64,000 nucleotides of DNA, from NCBI GenBank assembly GCA_949152475.1, contig OX424568.1, positions 23,845,667 through 23,909,666 on the forward strand, read 5' to 3'. This DNA is from Terebella lapidaria (taxonomy: Eukaryota; Annelida; Polychaeta; Terebellida; Terebellidae). Positions 37,917 through 64,000 of the stretch are shown in pieces. Below the pieces are notes generated by a model. It made no database searches. It was not told where the DNA came from and saw only the letters and a program-made list of their open reading frames with translations. Within the stretch, counting starts at the first letter, position 1, and the number at the start of each line of letters is the position of its first letter. A program made the translations under genes and the position numbers.

Positions 37917-40900
37917 ATGTCTCACTTCAACCTTGAGAACGAGATTTACGAAGCGACCCGTCTGGATGTCCCCCTGGAGCGGGGCCCACTGGCACGATGG
38001 CAGAGAAAGGCTCTGGAGGCTGGCGTCAAATCCCTATCACTTGATGGTATATGTAACATTAATATATTAGATTGCCTTATTGGTCCTATCTGTTGATTCT
38101 GTTCAGGTCTATGTGTAATGATGTGTGGTAGATATTTTGATGTACATACCAAATGTTTCATACAGCGGGCCTGAATCTCTCTGGCCTGTCAGGACCACGA
38201 TCCGGAGCTTTGACGGCCAAGACACCAAGAACTCCCCTCAGCTCACGAACCCTCACCGACAAACGACTATTAGGTCGGTATCCATGCCAACAAGCAAACT
38301 ATGATAACTATCCATTTTATAAAATATCGCTACTGCATCAGCATTTCATAAATATGCACTAAATTAATACTTCCAAATTTAGCTTGAACTGAATATATAA
38401 ATATGAGACACAAAAGATAATCATGATGATGTTTATACTATAATATGCTGCATAATAAGGTATTACATATACATGGAGGGTTTTGTGCTTAGCAGTTCCA
38501 GGGCGGACTCCGGGTTGCAAAACACCAGGTCAAACTCCAGGCAAAAGCTCGGGGACCCCAGTCAAAACGCCCAACAAGAGTCGCAAGCCTCTGTCGAGTA
38601 AAACTCCCAATAAGAGCAACCCCTCCACTCCTCATCTAAGTCAAGACAGGTCCGTGATACACAAATCGTATAGCAATCAGAAATGGAAGCCTTTACTAGT
38701 AACTTGTTTAGCATGTTTAGCGGCAAATCTTCCTATATATAATTGTTAACTTCATTTTTGCATTCTGACATATTCATTCAATGTCCTACCTCTATATAAA
38801 CACCTTTTGGGAAATCTTGCTCTGGCATGCAGGGATAGAAGTTATCTGGTATCCTAACCCTGCTCCACGGCTGAACCTGCATTTTCGATCGATGTTTTAA
38901 CAGTAGGTTCAGCCATGTAGGTTTTTTCTCTGAAGCCGGAACTCATCACTGACATCAGACGATTTTGACACTTCGATTCAAGTGCGTGTAAAGAATTGTC
39001 ACGCGTGAAATATGATGCAGATTGGTTTAAACTGACTTTTATGACATCAAAAGAGTGACATGTCATCGATTCAGAGGGTGTAAAATGTGAAAACAAAGCA
39101 GTGCAATTTAGCGCGTTCATTTTGTTTATTTTCCAACCTTTCAAGATAGCATTTCAAGATAATGTTTTAGTGTATGGGAGAAATGTTTTTGGGGTCTGGT
39201 GCATATTACATGTACCACGAAATGTTTTTAGTGTATGGGAGAAGTGTTTCTGGGGACACGGAAGGCCTATAGTGCACGGGAAAATGTTTTTAGTGTATGG
39301 GAGAAATGTTTTTGGGGACACGAAATGTTTTTAGTGAATGGGAGAAGGCTTATAATATACGGGAAAATGTTTCTGGCGACACGGAAGGCTTATAGTGTAC
39401 GGGAAAATGTTTTTATTGGATAGGAGAAATGTTTTTGGGGACACAAAATGTTTTTAGTGTATGTGAAAAATGTTTTTGGGGACACGAAATGTTTTGAGTG
39501 TATGGGAGAAATGTTTTTAGGGACACGGAAGGCTTATAGTGTACGGTAAAATGTTTTAAGTGTCTGGGAGAAATGTTTTTGGGGACACGAAATGTTTTTA
39601 GTATGGGAGAAGGCTTATAGTACATGTATACGGGAAAATGTTTTTAGTGTATGGAAGAAATGTTTTTGGGGACAAGGAAGGCTTATAGTGTACGGGAAAA
39701 TGTTTTCAGTGTTTGGGAGAAATGTTTTTGGGGACACGAAATGTTTTTAGTGTATGGGAGAAAAGCTTATAATATACGGGAAAATGTTTCTGGGGACACG
39801 GAAGGCTTATAGTGTACGGGAAAATGTTTTTAGTGTATAGGAGAAATGTTTTTGGGGACACGAAATGTTTTTAGTGTATGGGAGAAATGTTTTTGGGGAC
39901 ACGGAAGGCTTATAGTGTACGGGAAAATGTTTTTAGTGTATGGGAGAAATGTTTTTGGGGACACGGAAGGCTTATAGTGTACGGGAAAATGTTTTTAGTG
40001 TATGGGGGAAATGTTTTTGGGGACACGAAATGTTTTTAGTGTATGGGAGAAATTTTTGGGGGGACACGAAATGTTCTTAGTGTATGGGAGAAGGCTTATA
40101 GTATACGGGAAAATGTTTTTAGTGTATGGGAGAAATGTTTTTGGGGACACGGAAGGCTTATAGTGTACGGGAACATGTTTTGAGTGTATGGGAGAAATGT
40201 TTTTGGGGACACGGAAGGCTTATAGTGTACGGGAAAATGTTTTTAGTGTCTGGGAGAAATGTTTTTGGGGACACGGAATGTTTTTAGTGTCTGGGAAAAA
40301 ATGATAATTGATTGTTTAGTAGAACAAACTAGGTGTTTTTTTTTTCGAGTATTCACTCAAAGAGTAATTGCAATTTAATTCCACGGACGCACAACTTCGC
40401 ACTTCACGGTCAATTAATTGGCGGAACATTTTGTGACAGAAGAATGACTGTGACAAACAGTCGTTGTTATAAAAAAGAAAAGAGAAACGCGACCAAAGAA
40501 GACAAGAACACAACCTCGTTTCTGATTTGAATGTTGATCTTGGTTTTACTCATATAAAGATTTGTTGTTTTTGTTTTATCCCAATAAATTTGTGATTGTA
40601 ATGGGCAATGAAGGAAAAGAATAAATAAACACAGCACCATTTGTGAATGTCTTAGGCTATATTTTTCTTGTTTTTAACCTTAACCCAATATCGATTTGTA
40701 TGTGAAAGGCAATAAACACAATGCAACAAAGGAAAACAACGAACACAATACTTTTTATTAATAGTTTAATGCGATCATGGCATGCATTGGCCCACATCTA
40801 TTGGTTTTAATCACATCAATAATCACATCATAAATCTTCTCTTTTGCTTTTTGTAAGCTACACTTCCAAATACGTTTGCAAATTCAATATATAATAATAC

Positions 40901-43900
40901 ATATGTCATCATCGAGTATTCATACAGACGCTACCCTAAAAACATCAACCTAGCAAGAACGAAATTCACAGTTTTTGGCCACCTCAAGATGGCGATGACA
41001 CACTTGTTTACCGGTCATTAAAAACACTTGAGCGGCGCCAGTATTGTATGAAAATACTACTTTTTGGGCGTATATACGAATCATTTCAACTATTCGACCA
41101 TTTTCCATAGTTATCTAAGTTTTTTGGGCTTTATCAAGTAGGAAAACCGTACACGAAAAACATTTCACAAGTCCCCAAAAACATCACTAACGAGACAATC
41201 AGAGATCAGGTCAATTATTGATTTTTACATTTTCCGTTGCCATGGCAACAGTTTTTGTCCGATTTTGACCAGATTCGAGGAGGACCGAGCCACTGAGATA
41301 CCGCTAAGTTTCATGTTGATCGGACCATTCTCCTTTGAGATATGCGCGCGGACAGACAGACAAACAGACAGACAAACGGACAGACCCAATTACAATACCC
41401 TCTGCCCCTATCGGGGCGAGGGTAAAAACGTGTATTACTGGGACCCATGCTGCAGTGCGCATGCGCAGTAGACCATCTAGTCAACTTGGGAGAATGAGAG
41501 AATTGATCTTTATTTTTCTATCGGATTATCCAATGAAAGCAATTCATATGTTTCTTTTTTTCATCGAATAATATAATAATTTGATCCATATTCCTCTGAA
41601 AACATCGTCGTGATAATGCCACGCAGTTGTCACGTTTCAACACAGTTTCAGACACGCCCACTTCTTACCCATGATTCTCTGCGAATCTCGCGTGAGTGCC
41701 ATGGCAAAATGGCGAGAGGGGGTTTCAGCGATGAAATGATGAAGACCCAATGACAACCAACAGGTCTCAGCTGGGTCTCTCGAAAAGACCCAACGGAGCA
41801 CAGCCAGGAGCATTTGTTTTGTCATTACATGTGACACAATGGGACACTCATCATTTCATCTTTCCAACTGACCCAGTGGGAACCTGACCCAGTCAGACAT
41901 TCATCGCTTCATCATTTCACCTGACCCAGTGGGACACTCATCATTTCATCCTTTCAACTGCCCCAGTGGGAACCTCACCCAGTTAGACATTCATCGCTTC
42001 ACCATTTTACCTGAATAAGTGGGACACTCATTTCATCCTTTCAACTGACCCAGTGGGAACCTGACCCAGCCAGACATTCATCGCTTCATCATTTAACATG
42101 ACCCAGTGGGACACTCATCATTTCATCATTTCAACCGACCCAGTGGGAACCTGATCCAGTCAGACATTCATCATTTCATCATTAGGGCATTTCGGCACGA
42201 AATGTCCTTATGGTTTTGTCAGAATTTTTTTTTTTTTTTTTTTTTCTTTTTTTTTTTTCATTTTTTTTTTTTTTTTTTTTTTTCACTTTTCGGTTTCCGG
42301 ACGATAACTTAAGAACGCCTTGACGAATCTTCGAGAAATTTTCACCAGTTATCACATATATAACATAGATGAACCCTATTGTTTTGGAGCCGGCTTCGAG
42401 GTCCGGTTAGTCCGTGAGGATGAATTTTGAGTCAAATGGTTTCCGGATGATAACTCGAAAAGTACTTGGGCTACCATTCTGAAACTTGACATATATGTTG
42501 ATATAGTGTCGCAGAGGAGCCCTATCGATTACGGGGTCAATACCTTGAACGACCTTTGACCCAAGGGCCAAAAACAATTTTGATGAGTCATCCTTGAGGC
42601 TCATTGCATATCTCGGAAACGTTGCGTCGTAGAGCGAAACGGACGTTATTTTCGGACTCGTTGACCTAGACAAACATGTCTCAGGGGTATTATGGATGAA
42701 CTTTGACCTTGACCCAATTTTTTTTCGCCGAGTCGGCATTTTTCGTTTCCTTCGATATCTCGGAAATGGTGTGTCGTAGAGCGAAACGGACGTCATTTTC
42801 GGACTCGTCGACCTAGACAAACATGTCTTAAGGGTATTACAGATGACCTTTGACCTTGACCTTGAATTTTTCTGCCGAGTCGGCATTTTTCGTTTTCGTC
42901 GATATCTCGGAAACGGTGCGTCGTAGAGCGAATCGGACGTTATTTTCGGACTCGTCACCCTAGACAAACATGTCTAAGGGTTATTATGGATGAACTTTGA
43001 CCTTGACCCGAAATGTTTTTGCCGAGTCGACATTTTTCGTTTTCTTCGATAACATGGAAACGGTGCATCGTAGAGCGAAACGGACGTTATTTTCGGACTC
43101 GTCGACCTAGACAGACATGTCTAAATTGTATTATGGATGAACTTTGACCTTGACTGGAAATTTTTTTGCCGAGTCGGCATTTTTCATTTTCGTCGATATC
43201 TCGGGAACGGTGCGTCATAGAGCGAAACGGACTTTATTTTTGGATTCGTCACCCTAGACAAACATGTCTAAAGGGTATTATGGATGAACTTTGACCTTGA
43301 CCGGAAATTTTTTTGCCGAGTCGGCATTTTTCGTTTTCTTCGATATCTCGGAAATGGTGCGTCGTAGAGCGAAACGGACGTTATTTTCGAACTCATGGCA
43401 CTAGACAAACATGTCTAAGGGGTATTATGGATGAACTTTGACCTTGACCTGAAATTTTTTTGCCGAGTCGGCATTTTTCGTTTTCGTCGATATCTCGGAA
43501 ACGGTGCACCGTAGAGCGAAACGGACGTTATTTTCGGACTCGTCGACCTAGACAAACATGTCTAAAGGGTATTATGGATGAACTTTGACCTTGACCCGAA
43601 TTTTTTTTGCCGAGTCGGCATTTTTCGTTTTCTTCAATATCTTGGAAATGGTGTGTCGTAGAGCGAAACGGACGTTATTTTCGGACTCGTCACCCTAGAT
43701 AAACATGTCTGAAGGGTATTATGGATGAACTTTGACCTTGACCCGAAATTTTTTTGCCGAGTCAGCATTTTTCGTTTTCTTGGATATCTCGGAAACGGTG
43801 CATCGTAGACCGAAACGGACATTATTTTCGGACTCGTCGACCTAGACAAACATGTCTTAAGGGTATTAGGGATGACCTTTTACCTTGACCTTGAATTTTT

Positions 43901-46900
43901 CTGCTGAGTCGGCATTTTTCGTTTTCTTCGATATCTCGGAAACGGTTTGTCATAGAGCGAAACGGTCGTTATTTTCGGACTCGTGACACTAGGCAAATAT
44001 GTCTTAGGGGTATGTTGAGTCAACTTGATCCGTCGTCTTGGATTGAAATGGATGTATCTACATAATCATTTTGGCTGCAGAGTTGTCAGTAATAAACAGT
44101 TCACCTGTGATTGTGTTGTGTATCGAAATGCCCCAAGGCCTCTAGGCCTTCACGTCTAGTTTTACATGACCCAGTCAGACATTCATCATTTCATCATTTT
44201 ACATGACCCAGTGGGACACTCATCATTTCATCCTTTCAATTGACCCAGTGGGAACCTCATCATTTCATCATTCCAACTGACCCAGTGGGAACCTGACCCA
44301 GTCAGACATTCATCGCTTCATCATTTTACATGACCCAGTGGGACATTCGTCATTTCATCCTTTTTACTGACCCAGTGGGAACCTGACCCAGCCAGACATT
44401 CATCACTTCATCATTTTACCTGACCCAGTGGGACACTCATCATTTCATCCTTTCAGCTGACCCAGTGGGAACCTGACCCAGCCAGACATTCATCACTTCA
44501 TCATTTAACATGACCCAGTGGGACACTCATCATTTCATCATTTCAACCACCCCAGTGGGAACCTGATCCAGTCAGACATTCATCATTTCATCATTTTACA
44601 TAATCCAGTGGGACATTCGTCATTACATCATTTTACATGACCCAGTGGGACACTCATCAATTCATCCTTTCAACCGACCCAGTGTGAACCTGACCCAATC
44701 AGACATTCATCGCTTCATCATTTTACATGACCCAGTGGGACACTCATCATTTCATCCTTTTAACTGACCCAGTGGGAACCTGACCCAGCCAGACATTCAT
44801 CGCTTCATCATTTTACATGAGCCAGTGGGACACTCATCACTTCATCCTTTCGAATGACTCATATTGGGAACCTGACCCAGTCAAAAATTCATCGCTTCAT
44901 CATTTTACCTGACCCAGTGGGACACTCATCATTTCATCCTTTCAACTGACCCAGTGGGAACCTCATCATTTCATCATTCCAACTGACCCAGTGGGAACCT
45001 GACCCAGTCAGACATTCATCGCTTCATCATTGTATCCCCCGAACAAAGTTCGGCGGATACTATGGATTTACGATCGTCGCGCCGCGTCCGCGTCCGCAGA
45101 CACTTTCTTGTGAACGCGCTGCAGCTTGCAAATATGAACCGATTTTGATAATATTTCATATGGACATGTCTTATGGTGAGATCTGGACACCTATCGATTT
45201 TGGTTGCCATAGCAACCAAAATAGCCGATTGGCGTAACATTTTGTGCTCAAATTAGCCTGTTTAACACACATGGTGAACGCTCTACGGGTGGGAGTTTTC
45301 AATGAATGATGATGAAATCGCACAGGCTCAATGAGAAAGACCATCACACGAAACCTATTGTTTTTCAGAATGATCGAATAAATATTAATAAGTTTGAGAG
45401 GTTAACTTATTACGACAATTAAAATACCTACTTAGACATGTGTGATCACTCCAATAACCTATGAAAGCAAATTGCACTGGATTCTTGTTCAGAATACAGA
45501 ACTGATGTTTTTGGTGAAAACAGAACAATATTACTGAATAAGTTAACATTGGTTTTACTAGTTAAGTCTATTATTGACCACAATAAAAATAGTTAAGACG
45601 AGAAACATTTATTATTGAGCTCAACAAGGTAAAGGTTTTGTCCAGTACAGATTTCACAGGTGTAACCGAATAAGTTAATATTATTTTTACTAGTTAAGTC
45701 TATTATTGACCACAATAAAAATAGTTAAGACAAGAAACATTTATTATTGGGCTCAACAAGGTAAAGCTTCTTTGCAGTAGAGATTTCATGGCTGTAGCCA
45801 AATAAGTTAACATCATTTTCACTAGTCAAGTCTATTATTGACCACAATAAAAATAGTTAAGACAAGAAACATTTATTATTGAGCTCAACAATTTAAAATT
45901 TTTGTCCAGTAGAGATTTCATGGGTGTAACCGGATAAGTTAACATTATTTTTATGTTATTTTAATGTCAATTTTTACTTCGAATTTCAACTTGAAACCAA
46001 GTTTGGCACATATTATGAATTAAAATTTAAACTATGGTTAAAAGTTGATCTGGCTCCAATTTCGTCATCTTGAAATGTAGTTTTGGTCAACTTTTACTTT
46101 GAATTTCAACTTGGAACCAAGTTTGGCACATAGTATGAGTTGAAATATAACTTATAGTGAAAAGTTCGATCTGCCTCCAATTTAGTCATCTCGCAACTTG
46201 GAACCAAGTTTGTCAAATATTCTGAGTTGAAATATAGCTTTAGGTGAAAACTTTTATCTGGCTGTAATTTCGTTATTTTTTTCGAACATGTCGAAATGGA
46301 AATTCGAATGCAGTGATTTTAGTGGTGATCTTGAATTCGATCTTCAATCAGCTTGAAAGGTTTCACACTCACAATGTACATCAGCGATATATTTGGGGCA
46401 ACAGGGATGATAGGGCTACGGGGGATACACCCAAGCGGTCGTAGGCGACCGGAAGCGTCTAGTTTAACATGACCCAGTGGGACACTCATCATTTCATCAT
46501 TTCAATCGACCCAGTGGGAACCTGATCCAGTAAGACATTCATCATTTCATCATTTTACATAACCCAGTGGGACACTCATCATTTCATCCTTTCAACTGAC
46601 CCAGTGGGAACCTCGTCATTTCATCATTCCAACTGACCCAGTGGGAACCTGACCCAGTCAGACATTCATCGCTTCATCATTTTACCTGACCCAGTGGGAC
46701 ACTCATCATTTCAACCGACCCAGTGGGAACCTGATCCAGTCAGACATTCATCATTTCATCATTTTACATGACCCAGTCAGACATTCATCATTTCATCATT
46801 TTACATGACTCAGTGGGACACTCATCATTTCATTATTTCAATTGACCCAGTGGGAACCTCATCATTTCATCATTCCAACTGACCCAGTGGGAACCTGACC

Positions 46901-49900
46901 CAGTCAGACATTCATCGCTTCATCATTTTACCTGACCCAGTGGGACACTCATCATTTCAACCGACCCAGTGGGAACCTGATCCAGTCAGACATTCATCAT
47001 TTCATCATTTTACATGACCCAGTCAGACATTCATCATTTCATCATTTTACATGACCCAGTGGGACACTCATCATTTCATCATTTCAACCGACCCAGTGGG
47101 AACCTGATCCAGTCAGACATTCATCATTTCATCATTTTACATGACCCAGTCAGACATTCATCATTTCATCATTTTACATGACCCAGTGGGACACTCATCA
47201 TTTCATCCTTTCAATTGACCCAGTGGGAACCTCATCATTTCATCATTCCAACTGACCCAGTGGGAACCTGACCCAGTCAGACATTCATCACTTCATCATT
47301 TTACATGACCCAGTGGGACATTCATCATTTCATCCTTTTAACTGACCCCGTGGGAACCTGACCCAGCCAGACATTCATTGCTTCATCATTTGACATGACC
47401 CAGTGGGACACTCATCATTTCATCATTTCAACTGACCCAGTGGGAACCTGACCCAGTGAAACATTCATCATTTCATCATTTTACATGGCCCACTGGGTCA
47501 TTCATCATTTCATCCTTTCAAATGACCCAGTGGGAACCTGAACCAGTCAGATATTCATCGCTTCATCATTTCCCTTGACCTAGTGGGACACTGATCATTC
47601 CATCCTTCCATCTGACCCAGTGGGAACTTCAGCCAGTCAGACATTGATTGCTTCATCATTAAGGTATTTCAGCAGATACGCCTTTACGGTTTTGTCAAAA
47701 AAAATTTTTTTTTTCGTTTTTTCTTCTTTCACAGCATTTTTCGTGAAAAATGCCGACACAGCATTTTTCCGACTGGACAAAAAAAATTCAGGTCAAGGTC
47801 AAAGTTCATCCCCAGTACCCCTTAAATATGTTTCACTCCGCCACAAGTCCAAAAATAACGTCTGTTTCGCTCCACGACGCACCGCTTCCGAGATATGCAT
47901 GAGAGCCACAAGGATGACTCAGCTAAAATTATTTCGAGCCCTAGGTCAACCGTCATTCGACGGATCACCCTCAAAATTAACAGTCTTCTTCCCTGGTGAT
48001 ATATGGACCTCCATGCAAAGTCCCACAGTCATTGCCATAATATTTTTTTAGTTATCATGTGGAACCAGAAATATTGATTTCATCCTCACGGACCTTACGG
48101 ACCCCGAAGCCAGCTCAAAAACAATAAGCTTTTTCTACACCTCATTTCTGACCAGCTGTGGAAATTTGGCAGATATATCAGGGCAAACTGAAATTATCGT
48201 GCGGAAACCAGAAAATGAAAGAAAAAGAGAATTTTTTTTTACAAAAGCATAAAGGCATTACTGGTGTCTGCCTTGAAAATGAAGCGATGAATGTCTGACT
48301 CCGTCAGGTTCCCACTGGGTCAGTTGAAATGAAATGATGAGTGTCCTACTAGGTCAAGTGAAATGATGAAGCAATGAACGTCTGGCTGGGTCAGTTGGAA
48401 TGATGAAATGATGAGGTTTCCACTGGGTCAGTTGAAAGGATGAAAAGATGAATGTCCCACTGGGTCATGTAAAATGATGAAATGATAAAGGCCTCATTGG
48501 GTCAGGTTCCCACTGGGTCAGTTGAAAGGATGAAAAGATGAATGTCCCACTGGGTCATGTAAAATGATGAAATGATAAAGGCCTCATTGGGTCAGGTTCC
48601 CACTGGGTCAGTTGAAAGGATGAAATGATGAGTGTCCCACTGGGTCATGTAAAATGATGAAGCGATGACTGTCTGGTTGGGTCAGGTTCCCACTGGGTCA
48701 GTTAAAAAGGATGAAATGATGAGTGTCCCACTAGGTCAAGTTAGAAATACATAAGACCAATGTATTTCTGGTCGAGTGAAATGATGAAGGGATGAATGTC
48801 TGATTGGGTCAGGTTCCCACTGGGTCAATTGAAAAGATGAAATGATGAGTGTCCCACTGGGTCAGTGTCCCACTGGGTCAAGTGAAATGATGAAGCGATG
48901 AATGTCTGACTGGGTCAGATTCCCACTGGGTCAGTTGAAAGTATGAAATGATGAGTGTCCCACTGGGTCAGATTCTCAGTAGGTATGTCAAATGATTAAG
49001 CGATGAATCTTTCCTCTTGCCAATGGTCATTCCTTCGAATTTAAATTAGGGGGACGGGGGTAGGCCGTATAGAGTTCTAGGGTTGGGTCAATTGATCACC
49101 ACGGCACTGGCACTGCTACTGACACACCATAGTAAACCGGAAATTACATTGTGAAAATGTATGATCCCGGAAGACAGTTTGCGGCCAGACCCAGTGGTAA
49201 CCCCGTTCGACCCAGCTGAGACATTGGTTCTCATTGGGTCTTCATCATTTCATCGCTGAAAGCGCTTATGAAAATGGCGGCAATATCAACACGAAGTTGG
49301 CAGATTTGACAGCTCGGGATATTTTGCTTGTTATTTACGATAAGTACACAGTATTTTCGTTTTTGCTCCAGAAAATGATTGCAAACCATTCCCTCTTGTG
49401 AATTACAGAGCTATATCCGGAATAAATGTCGTTTATTCCCGGCCCCTCAGGGCCGGGTATATGTGATTGTCGTTGACCTCACCCTATGTATCTCCTGTCT
49501 TCCGACTCTCTCGGACGACTCTCTTAGATTCAGCATACATTGGTGTTGGTTTCGCGAATTTGCAATAAAAGCTGAGAAAATTCCGCTAAACTGATTTAAA
49601 AACACTGCTAATATCACTGTACTAACAATAAGAATTTGAATGACAATGAGAAGTGCTGTTTCAAATTAGTTTTCGGCTGGTATTCGCAAGTGCAATTACC
49701 GATTCTCCTGCCGGTTATTTTGGAACTTCTCATATTTGAACCGCCCCAGATATAATCACTGCGTTATATAACTACGCCAACAAGTAATCACTAAGAATAT
49801 GTTGTATTGCAGCGACAGACAGTGATACATTAGGTGTAAGCATTTCAGAGAATAGTTTAAAATTATCTTTTCGAATTATTACAGTTGCATTAGGCCTGTT

Positions 49901-60247: not shown

Positions 60248-60439
60248 TACGGTGGCTTAGATTCGCCATCACGTTTAATTTAAACCCCATTCAGTTTCCA
60301 CCTCGGCGAGAACCCTTCTCACATAGGTGTGTGGCGATTTTGCGATTTTGCCCTAAGCACGCGGCAGGTGATTGTAAACATACATGCCATTTATGTGGCC
60401 TTTTCGTACTTGGCCTTGTTTTGACACGCTCCGTTCGAG

Positions 60440-61072
60440 CGTGCGTTGCCACGGCGACGCATTGTAATTTACGCTCCAGTAAACTATAACAATGGATCGA
60501 TTAGACCTCGCGTGCGTCCCACAGCTTGTGGTGTATTATATATACACTGGAAGCGACTCGATCGAGGAGATTGTCCGAGAGAGAGTAACTGGGACGCACA
60601 CGAGGCTCGCCATGAGCTTTGTGTTCCCTAGTTGCGAGTAGTGGGCTCCTAGAGCCCTGGGGACGATTTCCATGGGGAGGCCCGGGCTGGGAGAGACAAG
60701 TTGCTGATTCGGGGGCATAAGCCCTGTGGATCGCCAGTTCTCTCCCTTCCCGGGACGTGTGACATAGGCTCTGGCCAGCATGTCGGACTGTACGGGGTTC
60801 CGTCCCCCGAGGCAGACCGCGGCTCGCCAGGCCCCGCCAGTTAACACCGTGGTGATGAACCAGTTTCTGAACGGTGTCCGTAGGCCTGGGAGTGTCGGGT
60901 GGGCTGTTACCTGGTTACCGTTAATGCTGAAATAGTTACCGTGTCCGCAGTGACCTCCGGTGAGCGGCGCCGCCGCAAGGATCCGGAATAGCGGATGCGC
61001 GTCCGCAAGGACTCGTGGTGAGAGGACTATCCTCGAGGATCCCGAAGAGCGGACGGTAGTCAATAACTTTAC
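60440..61072. other. GC-rich single-copy segment inside the TIR element
   Basis: Clearly GC-richer than the surroundings. A 184-codon open frame on the minus strand (60536-61090) enters the satellite at its start and resembles nothing I know; its openness may just reflect base composition. It could be captured host DNA, an element leader or unannotated RNA. Confidence 0.4.
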
Positions 61073-63905
61073 AGGTGAAAACCTTTTCACCCCAGTGAAA
61101 ACCTTCTCACCCCGGTGAAAACCTTCTCACCCCAGTGAAAACCTTCTCACCCCGGTGAAAACCTTCTCACCCCGGTGAGAACCTTCTCACCCCGGTGAGA
61201 ACCTTCTCACCTAGGTGAAAACCTTCTCACCCCGGTGAAAACCTTATTACCCCGGTGAAAACCTTCTCACCCCGGTGAGAACCTTCTCACCCCGGTGAGA
61301 ACCTTCTCACCCCGGTGAGGTTCTCACCAGGGTGAGAAGGTTCTCACTGGGGTGAGAAGGTTCTCATCGGGGTGAGAAGGTTTTCACCAGGGTGAAAAGG
61401 TTCTCACCGGGTTGAGAAGGTTTTCACCGGGGTAATAAGGTTTTCACCGGGATGAGATGGTTTTCACCTAGGTGAAGGTTTTGACCTTGGGAGAAGGTTT
61501 TCACCTATGTGAGAATGTTTTCACCGAGGTGAGAAGGTTTTCACCGAGGTGAGAAGGTTTTCACCGGGGTGAGAAGGTTATCACTGGGGTGAGAAGGTTT
61601 TCAATGGGGTGAGAAGGTTTTCACCTAGGTGAGAAGGTTTTCACCGGGGTGAGAAGGTTTTCACCGAGGTGAGAATGTTTTCAACGGGGTGAGAAGGTTC
61701 TCACCGAGGTGAGAAGGTTCTCACCGGGGTGAGAAGGTTTTCACCGGGGTAATAAGGTTTTCACCGGGATGAGATGGTTTTCACCTAGGTGAAAGTTTTG
61801 ACCTTGGGAGAAGGTTTTCACCTATGTGAGAATGTTTTCACCGAGGTGAGAAGGTTTTCACCGAGGTGAGAAGGTTTTCACCGGGGTGAGAAGGTTATCA
61901 CTGGGGTGAGAACGTTTTCACCTAGGTGAGAAGGTTTTCACCGGGGTGAGAATGTTTTCACCGAGGTGAGAATGTTTTCACCGGGGTGAGAAGGTTCTCA
62001 TCGGGGTGAGAAGGTTTTTACCAGGGTGAAAATGTTTTCACCGGGGTGAGAAGGTTCTCACTGGGGTGAAAAGGTTCTCACCGAGGTGGAAACTGAATGG
62101 GGTGTAAATTAAACGTGATGGCGAATCTAAGCCACCGTACACAATACTATCAATGTCAGCAAAGATTCTACTTGTCACATGACCTCTCGATGCCACGTGA
62201 GATTCCACCTAGGTGAGAAGGTTTTCACCTGGGTGAGAAGGTTTTCACCGGGGTCAGAAGGTTCTCACCGGGGTGAGAAGGTTCTCACCAGGGTGAGAAG
62301 GTATTCACCGGGGCGAGAAGGTTTTCACTGGGGTGAGAAGGTTTTCACCAGGGTGAGAAGGTTCTCTTCGGGGTGAGAAGGTATTCACCAGGGTGAGAAG
62401 GTTTTCATCCAGGTGAGAAGGTTTTCACCGGGGTGAGAAGGTTCTCACCGGGGTGAGAAGGTTTTCACCAGGGTGAGAAGGTTTTCACCGGGGTGAGAAG
62501 GTTTTCACCGAAGTGAGAAGGTTTTCACCAGGGTGAGATGGTTCTCACCGGTGTGAGAAAGTTTTCACCAGGGTGAGAAGGTTTTCACCCGGGTGAGAAG
62601 GTTCTCACCGGGGTGAGAAGGTTTTCACCGGGGTGAGAAGGTTCTCATCGGGGTGAGAAGGTTTTTACCAGGGTGAAAATGTTTTCACCGGGGTGAGAAG
62701 GTTCTCACCGGGGTGAAAAGGTTCTCACCGAGGTGGAAACTGAATGGGGTGTAAATTAAACGTGATGGCGAATCTAAGCCACCGTACACAATACTATCAA
62801 TGTCAGCAAAGATTCTACTTGTCACATGACCTCTCGATGCCACGTGAGATTCCACCTAGGTGAGAAGGTTTTCACCTGGGTGAGAAGGTTTTCACCGGGG
62901 TCAGAAGGTTCTCACCGAGGTGAGAAGGTTCTCACCAGGGTGAGAAGGTATTCACCGGGGCGAGAAGGTTTTCACTGGGGTGAGAAGGTTTTCACCAGGG
63001 TGAGAAGGTTCTCTCCGGGGTGAGAAGGTATTCACCAGGGTGAGAAGGTTTTCATCCAGGTGAGAAGGTTTTCACCGAGGTGAGAAGGTTCTCACCGGGG
63101 TGAGAAGGTTTTCACCAGGGTGAGAAGGTTTTCACCGGGGTGAGAAGGTTTTCACCGAAGTGAGAAGGTTTTCACCAGGGTGAGATGGTTCTCACCGGTG
63201 TGAGAAAGTTTTCACCAGGGTGAGAAGGTTTTCACCCGGGTGAGAAGGTTCTCACCGGGGTGAGAAGGTTTTCACCGGGGTGAGAAGGTTTTCACCCAGG
63301 TGAGAAGGTTTTCACCAAAGTGAGAAGGTATTCACCGGGGTGAGAAGGTTTTCACCGGGGTGAGAAGGTATTCACCATGGTGAGAAGGTTTCCACCGTGG
63401 TGAGAAGGTTTTCACCTAGGTGAGAAGGTTCTCACCGAGGTGAGAAGGTTCTCATCGGGGTGAGAAGGTATTCACTGGGGTGAGAAGGTTTTCACCGGGG
63501 TGAGAAGGTTTTCACCGGGGTGAGAAGGTTTTCACCAAGGTGAGAAGGTTTTCACCGGGGTGAGAAGGTTTTTACTGGGGTGAGATGGTTCTCACCGGGG
63601 TGAGAAGGTTCTCAACGGGGTGAGAAGGTATTCACCGAGATGAGAAGCTTTTCACTGGGGTGAGAAGCTTTTCACTGGGGTGAGAAGGTTTTCACCGAGG
63701 TGAGAAGGTTTTCACCGGGGTGAGAAGGTTTTCACTGAGGTGAGAAGGTTTCCACTGGGGTGAGAAGGTTTTCACCGGGGTGAGAAGGTTTCACCGGGGT
63801 GATAAGGTTTTCACCGGGGTGGGAAGGTTTTCACCTAGGTGAGAAGGTTTTCACCGGGGTGAGAAGGTTTTCACCGGGTTGAAAAGGTTTTCACCTAGGT
63901 GAGAA
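61073..63905. repeat. Quasi-palindromic 20-bp satellite array
   Basis: Monomer consensus GGTGAGAAGGTTTTCACCGG, in which GGTGA and TTCACC pair across a short loop. The first part (61073-61316) reads in the reverse sense (GGTGAAAACCTTCTCACCCC) and flips at about 61318. A 647-bp block (about 62088-62735) is repeated next to itself with few differences. A smaller duplication (period about 315 bp) is visible at 61440-61900. Confidence 0.95.
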
Positions 63906-64000
63906 GGGTTCTCGCCGAGGTGGAAACTGAATGGGGTGTAAATTAAACGTGATGGCGAATCTAAGCCACCGTATTTATGCCTTCGTCTGAGTGGTTGAGT

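Follow-up and report, generated by a model that had tools for sequence, protein, structure and literature searches.

A dispersed, apparently non-autonomous foldback-type DNA transposon family with probable IS3EU ends in Terebella lapidaria

Layout of the copy at 60248..63973

The window, the whole 64,000-bp stretch of Terebella lapidaria DNA that was analyzed, carries at 60248..63973 a rearranged member of a family of parasitic DNA elements that is scattered through the genome in dozens of copies. The copy is bounded by 82-bp terminal inverted repeats (TIRs), 60248-60329 matching the reverse complement of 63892-63973 at 80 of 82 positions (E values of 3e-35 and 3e-33). An earlier, sequence-only reading had given ~76 bp with one difference, which was right; the second mismatch is the 76th base. 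Between the termini lie ~130 self-complementary 20-bp units, arranged as 12 full units and 1 partial unit on the left and 123 units, partial ones included, on the right. Unit orientation switches at 61318/61319 (reverse at 61074-61318, forward from 61319). The end match and the unit annotation thus bore out the proposal of a TIR element whose self-complementary units form inverted arrays, including the array reversal placed at ~61318. As in foldback elements, long inverted arms containing tandem repeats are enclosed by conserved ends. The features are as follows.

60248..60329, + strand: left TIR, made of a 55-bp conserved end beginning TACGGTGGCTTAG and the first array unit; 80/82 identical to the right end
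60330..61073, + strand: 744-bp sequence in the left arm, read as a solo long terminal repeat (LTR), TGTGGCG...TTTACA, of a high-copy LTR retrotransposon
61074..61318, - strand: left array of 12 full 20-bp units, in the opposite orientation to the right array
61319..62085, + strand: right array, block 1, containing a 317-bp internal duplication
62086..62139, - strand: first extra internal right end, 54 bp, identical to the right end and 98% identical to the left end
62140..62201, + strand: first fragment of the middle domain (M), 84% identical to M positions 1-53 of locus L010; displaced, lying after the internal end
62212..62732, + strand: right array, block 2, from the array-unit annotation
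62733..62786, - strand: second extra internal right end, carried on the 647-bp tandem duplicate
61985..63278, no strand: 647-bp tandem pair (61985-62631 and 62632-63278), boundaries approximate
62787..62848, + strand: second copy of the middle-domain fragment, from a sequence match
62859..63919, + strand: right array, block 3, from the array-unit annotation
63892..63973, - strand: right TIR, final bases CTAAGCCACCGTA

Between 62000 and 62649, the 647-bp duplication was evident in 13 windows of 50 bp, each with 48 to 50 of 50 positions identical. The copy is atypical in this duplication, in the solo LTR in its left arm, in its two extra internal right ends and in the lack of a target-site duplication (TSD), its left flank being CCATTC and its right flank TTTATG.

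We interpret 60330-61073 as a solo LTR that inserted into the left arm. The repeat had 42 matches including itself (best 40 of 3182 candidates scored), and the scored matches were 98-99% identical, except for the self match and one short match of 71%. At seven other loci inspected by eye, the copies begin with TGTGGCG (altered in L035) and finish with TTTACA. Furthermore, a primer-binding-site-like TGGTGCCGTGACC directly follows the LTR in L033 and L036, and the LTR is surrounded by 4-bp TSDs in L030, L032 and L034, while no such TSD was seen in L031 and L035. The window LTR is flanked by GGTG on both sides, which says little, since GGTG occurs throughout the array. Another reading of this 745-bp "unique" part was a captured gene or the remains of a transposase. 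That reading was rejected once the part proved to be a solo LTR; its ten reading frames gave no match above the curated cut-off and two sub-threshold ones (E values of 0.07 and 0.2). The parent LTR retrotransposon is very abundant in the genome, with 3182 first-look candidates.

The 20-bp unit has the consensus GGTGAGAAGGTTTTCACCGG and consists of two inverted 8-bp halves, each followed by GG, so that the 8-bp half-sites recur at a 10-bp pitch, i.e., one helical turn. Leaving aside the duplicated stretches, the window copy has 90 full units; 61 of these had at least seven of eight Watson-Crick arm pairs, and 86 had them when G-T pairs were counted. Random 18-mers of matched composition reached at least seven of eight pairs at a rate of 0.0002.

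A dispersed family with 6-bp target-site duplications

The exact 20-bp terminus TACGGTGGCTTAGATTCGCC was found 228 times in the 761.6-Mb genome (112 on the + strand and 116 on the - strand), while its reversed control was found on neither strand. The element is thus not a single-copy locus. Using the 200 of 228 ends mapped for this purpose, we obtained 64 adjacent +/- end pairs spanning 293 to 12,929 bp, with a middle value of ~1.6 kb; two zero-length rows (back-to-back ends) were left out. Addition of all 84 C-preceded ends brought the mapped places to 215 of 228.

Copies were examined fully in 20 regions of ~10 kb taken from the best matches, in eight middle-domain loci (one of which, L037, is L010) and in the window; they were mostly best-scoring matches and not a random sample. 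A typical copy is ~1.6 kb long and reads end, array (-), optional middle, array (+), end, with widely differing unit numbers. Units occurred in both orientations in 17 of the 20 regions (in L022, just one left unit was counted). The other three, L017, L018 and L019, have a left end and an array in one orientation only. They were considered as autonomous copies and rejected, as there was no right end in the stretch and no transposase-like frame by eye. The middle domain lies between the two arrays in L009, L010 and L023, and it was near full length (at least 168 of 211 bp) in 11 of the best 40 of 62 candidates, the query's own locus included. Paired ends read TACGG..CCGTA, although the right termini of L013 and L026 each differ by one base, and L015 and L021 are each missing a terminus. 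No transposase was seen in the family copies examined. For the patterns tried, a search for relatives in viral and prokaryotic collections found 0 exact matches and was dropped.

Extra ends were present in 6 of 21 stretches, namely, L009, L027, L028, L011, L014 and the window. L009:5410-8771 has a right end, one G and then a left-end fragment, twice over; L027:8904-9003 has a doubled 45-bp end within an intact TSD; and L028:5716-9302 has three right ends in tandem.

TSDs of 3 to 10 bp were sought at the 16 loci where a left and a right end could be paired at least once, the window among them and L010/L037 counted once; in 12 further loci, the stretch contained no such pair, and these lie outside the count. 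An exact 6-bp TSD was found at 11 of the 16 loci, and none of the 16 had a longer exact one. The TSD of L014 matched at 5 of 6 positions, and that of L027 was exact only with the outer of its two right ends. No exact TSD of these lengths was detected in L009, L026, L042 or the window; in the complex L009, a GTTAAG resembling the left flank comes after the inverted end fragment (by eye). A first reading of the window copy alone, with a 2-bp TA TSD and Tc1/mariner membership, was rejected by the other copies: their TSDs show that the TA is part of the terminus and that the TSD is 6 bp. In line with the dispersal of a foldback family, then, there are 228 exact termini and 6-bp TSDs at 11 of 16 paired-end loci, and the window element is a copy of a dispersed, apparently non-autonomous foldback-type DNA transposon family.

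Its missing TSD, the two internal right ends, the displaced middle-domain fragments and the 647-bp duplication would also fit a different history, in which the present window copy is a chimera of at least two copies produced by ectopic recombination (compare the Galileo inversions) and not one insertion. We consider this possible but on balance doubtful. The wanted flanks were indeed found at other termini, GAATGG at C1:82296324 and TTTATG at C14:18901315 (2 of 19 matches), but the first base past the opposite end was in both cases the base expected for an intact TSD, and ~0.6 matches to each flank are expected by chance (an estimate, from 19 matches over 32 combinations). Judged from that first base, neither was accepted as a reciprocal recombination product of the window copy. 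The chimera question touches the history of this copy and not the nature of the family.

Termini, superfamily and related systems

IS3EU elements in general have TA..TA termini and usually a 6-bp TSD (excerpts of PMC10045372), and the fungal IS3EU families in the available part of PMC12730594 have a 6-bp TSD and the termini TAYGG..CCRTA. The present family, with TACGG..CCGTA termini and a 6-bp TSD, carries this signature. It is probably a non-autonomous foldback-type DNA transposon family with ends of the IS3EU superfamily, a membership suggested by the termini and the TSD and not by a proven partner.

The genome contains 133 matches (150 of 246 candidates scored) to PF24764, an integrase-core family that we take to be the IS3EU-type transposase. 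One locus, L046, has a 406-amino-acid (aa) open reading frame (ORF) with PF24764 at 1.3e-35 and a HECT-domain ORF on the other strand. At all five places that share one 421-aa frame, the terminus TACGGTGGCTGATATATGCCAT was found 0.86 to 1.74 kb upstream of the PF24764 domain. Among 43 matches, which come from the best 40 of 648 candidates, homology between copies starts exactly at TACGG in 24 and 1 to 6 bases earlier in 19. The first 10 bp are common to the L046-lineage terminus and the foldback end, with a weaker match further in; 0 of 5000 shuffles were as good, and 7 of 5000 were when the first 5 bp were omitted.

The search for an autonomous partner sharing the ends, proposed in the sequence-only reading, thus yielded a PF24764 lineage with the same first 10 bp, but the 215 mapped ends among the 228 exact ones have none of the 133 PF24764 matches within 10 kb, the nearest being at 10.7 kb. 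For the L046 element, no right end turned up in the first 11.4 kb of the joined stretch, and L048, the one short copy examined that has both L046-type ends (TIRs identical at 91 of 94 positions), has no TSD. L045 (C6:16187583), an element with PF24764 and a HECT domain, was also considered as the autonomous partner and rejected: it is a neighbor, lying ~6-7 kb away from a foldback copy, and the 8 kb examined contained no TAYGGYGG-type terminus. The PF24764 ORF has a HECT-domain ORF on the opposite strand in both L045:679-5192 and L046:3207-7098, and HECT is unmentioned among the IS3EU literature matches listed.

It appears quite unlikely to us that the mobilizing transposase comes from a different superfamily, be it Mutator-like, P/Galileo or hAT6 with a 6-bp TSD, and that the TACGG ends arose by convergence. 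Most described foldback elements are placed in Mutator, with exceptions such as Galileo, according to excerpts of PMC4079207, hAT families with 6-bp TSDs exist (available part of PMC12730594), and the PF24764 survey of the exact ends produced no autonomous partner with the full end. However, the TSD is exactly 6 bp at all 11 loci having one, versus the 8 to 10 bp of Tetris that would be looked for in a Mutator-like element. Moreover, TACGG..CCGTA fits IS3EU, and the shared 10 bp belong to a PF24764 lineage of the same genome.

The sequence-only reading knew of no named family with this layout, but Tetris, Galileo and other foldback elements share it. The FB elements of Drosophila have long TIRs composed largely of internal tandem repeats, are apparently non-autonomous and vary in repeat number between copies. 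The same properties are described for Tetris of D. virilis in the excerpts of PMC4079207, but its TSD is 8 to 10 bp instead of 6 bp, and its unit is ~220 bp long instead of a 20-bp dyad. The termini TACGG..CCGTA set the present family apart from the FB and Tetris foldbacks. Galileo, of the P superfamily, likewise has foldback-like TIRs with tandem repeats, and these repeats hold extra transposase-binding sites (PMC3688188); its termini are different, as is the transposase superfamily that the termini and TSD suggest for the present family. The family resembles IS3EU/GingerRoot in its TA..TA termini, its 6-bp TSDs and the PF24764 lineage with the same first 10 bp, whereas its arms are inverted minisatellite arrays and the copies examined contain no transposase. 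An oyster satellitome study reports a pair of IS3EU-like satellites, whose units measure 690 and 129 bp, and cites Tetris, with no foldback IS3EU in the available part of that source (PMC8268682).

No earlier description of a foldback family on IS3EU-type ends was found among the literature matches listed. As far as we can see, this is a new family of the known foldback layout whose ends point to a little-studied transposon group, new with respect to the literature listed. If the assignment is true, the foldback layout arises on an integrase-like transposase too, besides Mutator and P (Galileo), which would support repeat-filled arms as a general, convergent solution.

Arms of the element and neighboring repeats

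In the proposed mechanism, an IS3EU-type DDE transposase supplied in trans would bind the ends, excise the element and reinsert it with a 6-bp stagger, and the arrays would lengthen and shorten via slippage and unequal exchange. In the window copy, a solo LTR would later have entered the left arm, the segment with an extra right end would have been duplicated in tandem, and the TSD would have been removed through recombination or deletion. The role that we favor for the repeat units is that of putative extra transposase-binding sites, by analogy with Galileo. Going further, the arrays may form an oversized docking platform along which an IS3EU-type dimer could load over hundreds of base pairs, the foldback layout having evolved independently on an integrase-like transposase; from the sequence, we regard this as speculative and rather unlikely.

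For the comparison of arms, 15 copies were tried and L022 was dropped due to its short left arm. In the remaining 14 copies, the mean proportion of left-arm 41-mers shared with the copy's own right arm was 0.077, versus 0.047 for the right arms of other copies. In 12 of these 14 copies, sharing with the own arm was above the between-copy mean, yet in just 3 did it pass the between-copy maximum; for the window copy, it was 0.263, versus a between-copy mean of 0.092 and maximum of 0.297. Common descent of the two arms of a copy has thus left just a faint trace. The view that the matching termini make the window structure young or homogenized is weakened: terminal identity is 95-100% family-wide (40 scored of 301 candidates), and the copy's own arms are little closer to each other than arms are between copies. 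Families of this kind seed dispersed minisatellites and long inverted repeats able to drive rearrangement.

It had also been predicted that the DNA should extrude cruciforms. The long inverted arms fold strongly, with RNA across the arm junction at -390 kcal/mol (z of -30), as any inverted arrays would. The prediction is weakened by the monomer, whose consensus is a weak DNA hairpin of -2.3 kcal/mol, reached by 15 of 200 shuffles, and a variant with C at position 13 gave -5.2 kcal/mol as DNA, reached by 2 of 200. Double-compensated pairs numbered 0 in 90 units versus 0.58 expected by shuffling, a weak test as the expectation is so low, and selection on pairing within the monomer was rejected with no covariation in these units. 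A selected hairpin or small-RNA locus, its dyad unit kept for a cruciform or double-stranded RNA function, is very improbable despite the near-perfect dyads and the strong folding of the junction. No Rfam match at gathering scores and no tRNA was found.

The CpG at C18-G19 of the unit (61319-63907) is among its most variable sites, with C>T in 13 and G>A in 11 of 90 units, as expected if the arrays are methylated.

Elsewhere in the window, 41723-49261 is a second, unrelated TIR-bounded structure (41723-41777 versus 49209-49261, 93%) with foldback-like inverted arrays of a 37-bp unit (TGACCCAGTGGGA...). No TSD was seen around it by eye, and a 147-bp array at 42608-44013 is among the repeats nested inside it. 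This structure hints at more than one such family in the genome. The stretch 39161-40300 is an array of ~62-bp and 41-bp units (AAATGTTTTTAGTGTATGGGAG...), and the window also contains ORFs with ubiquitin-conjugating, DHHC and STAG domains.
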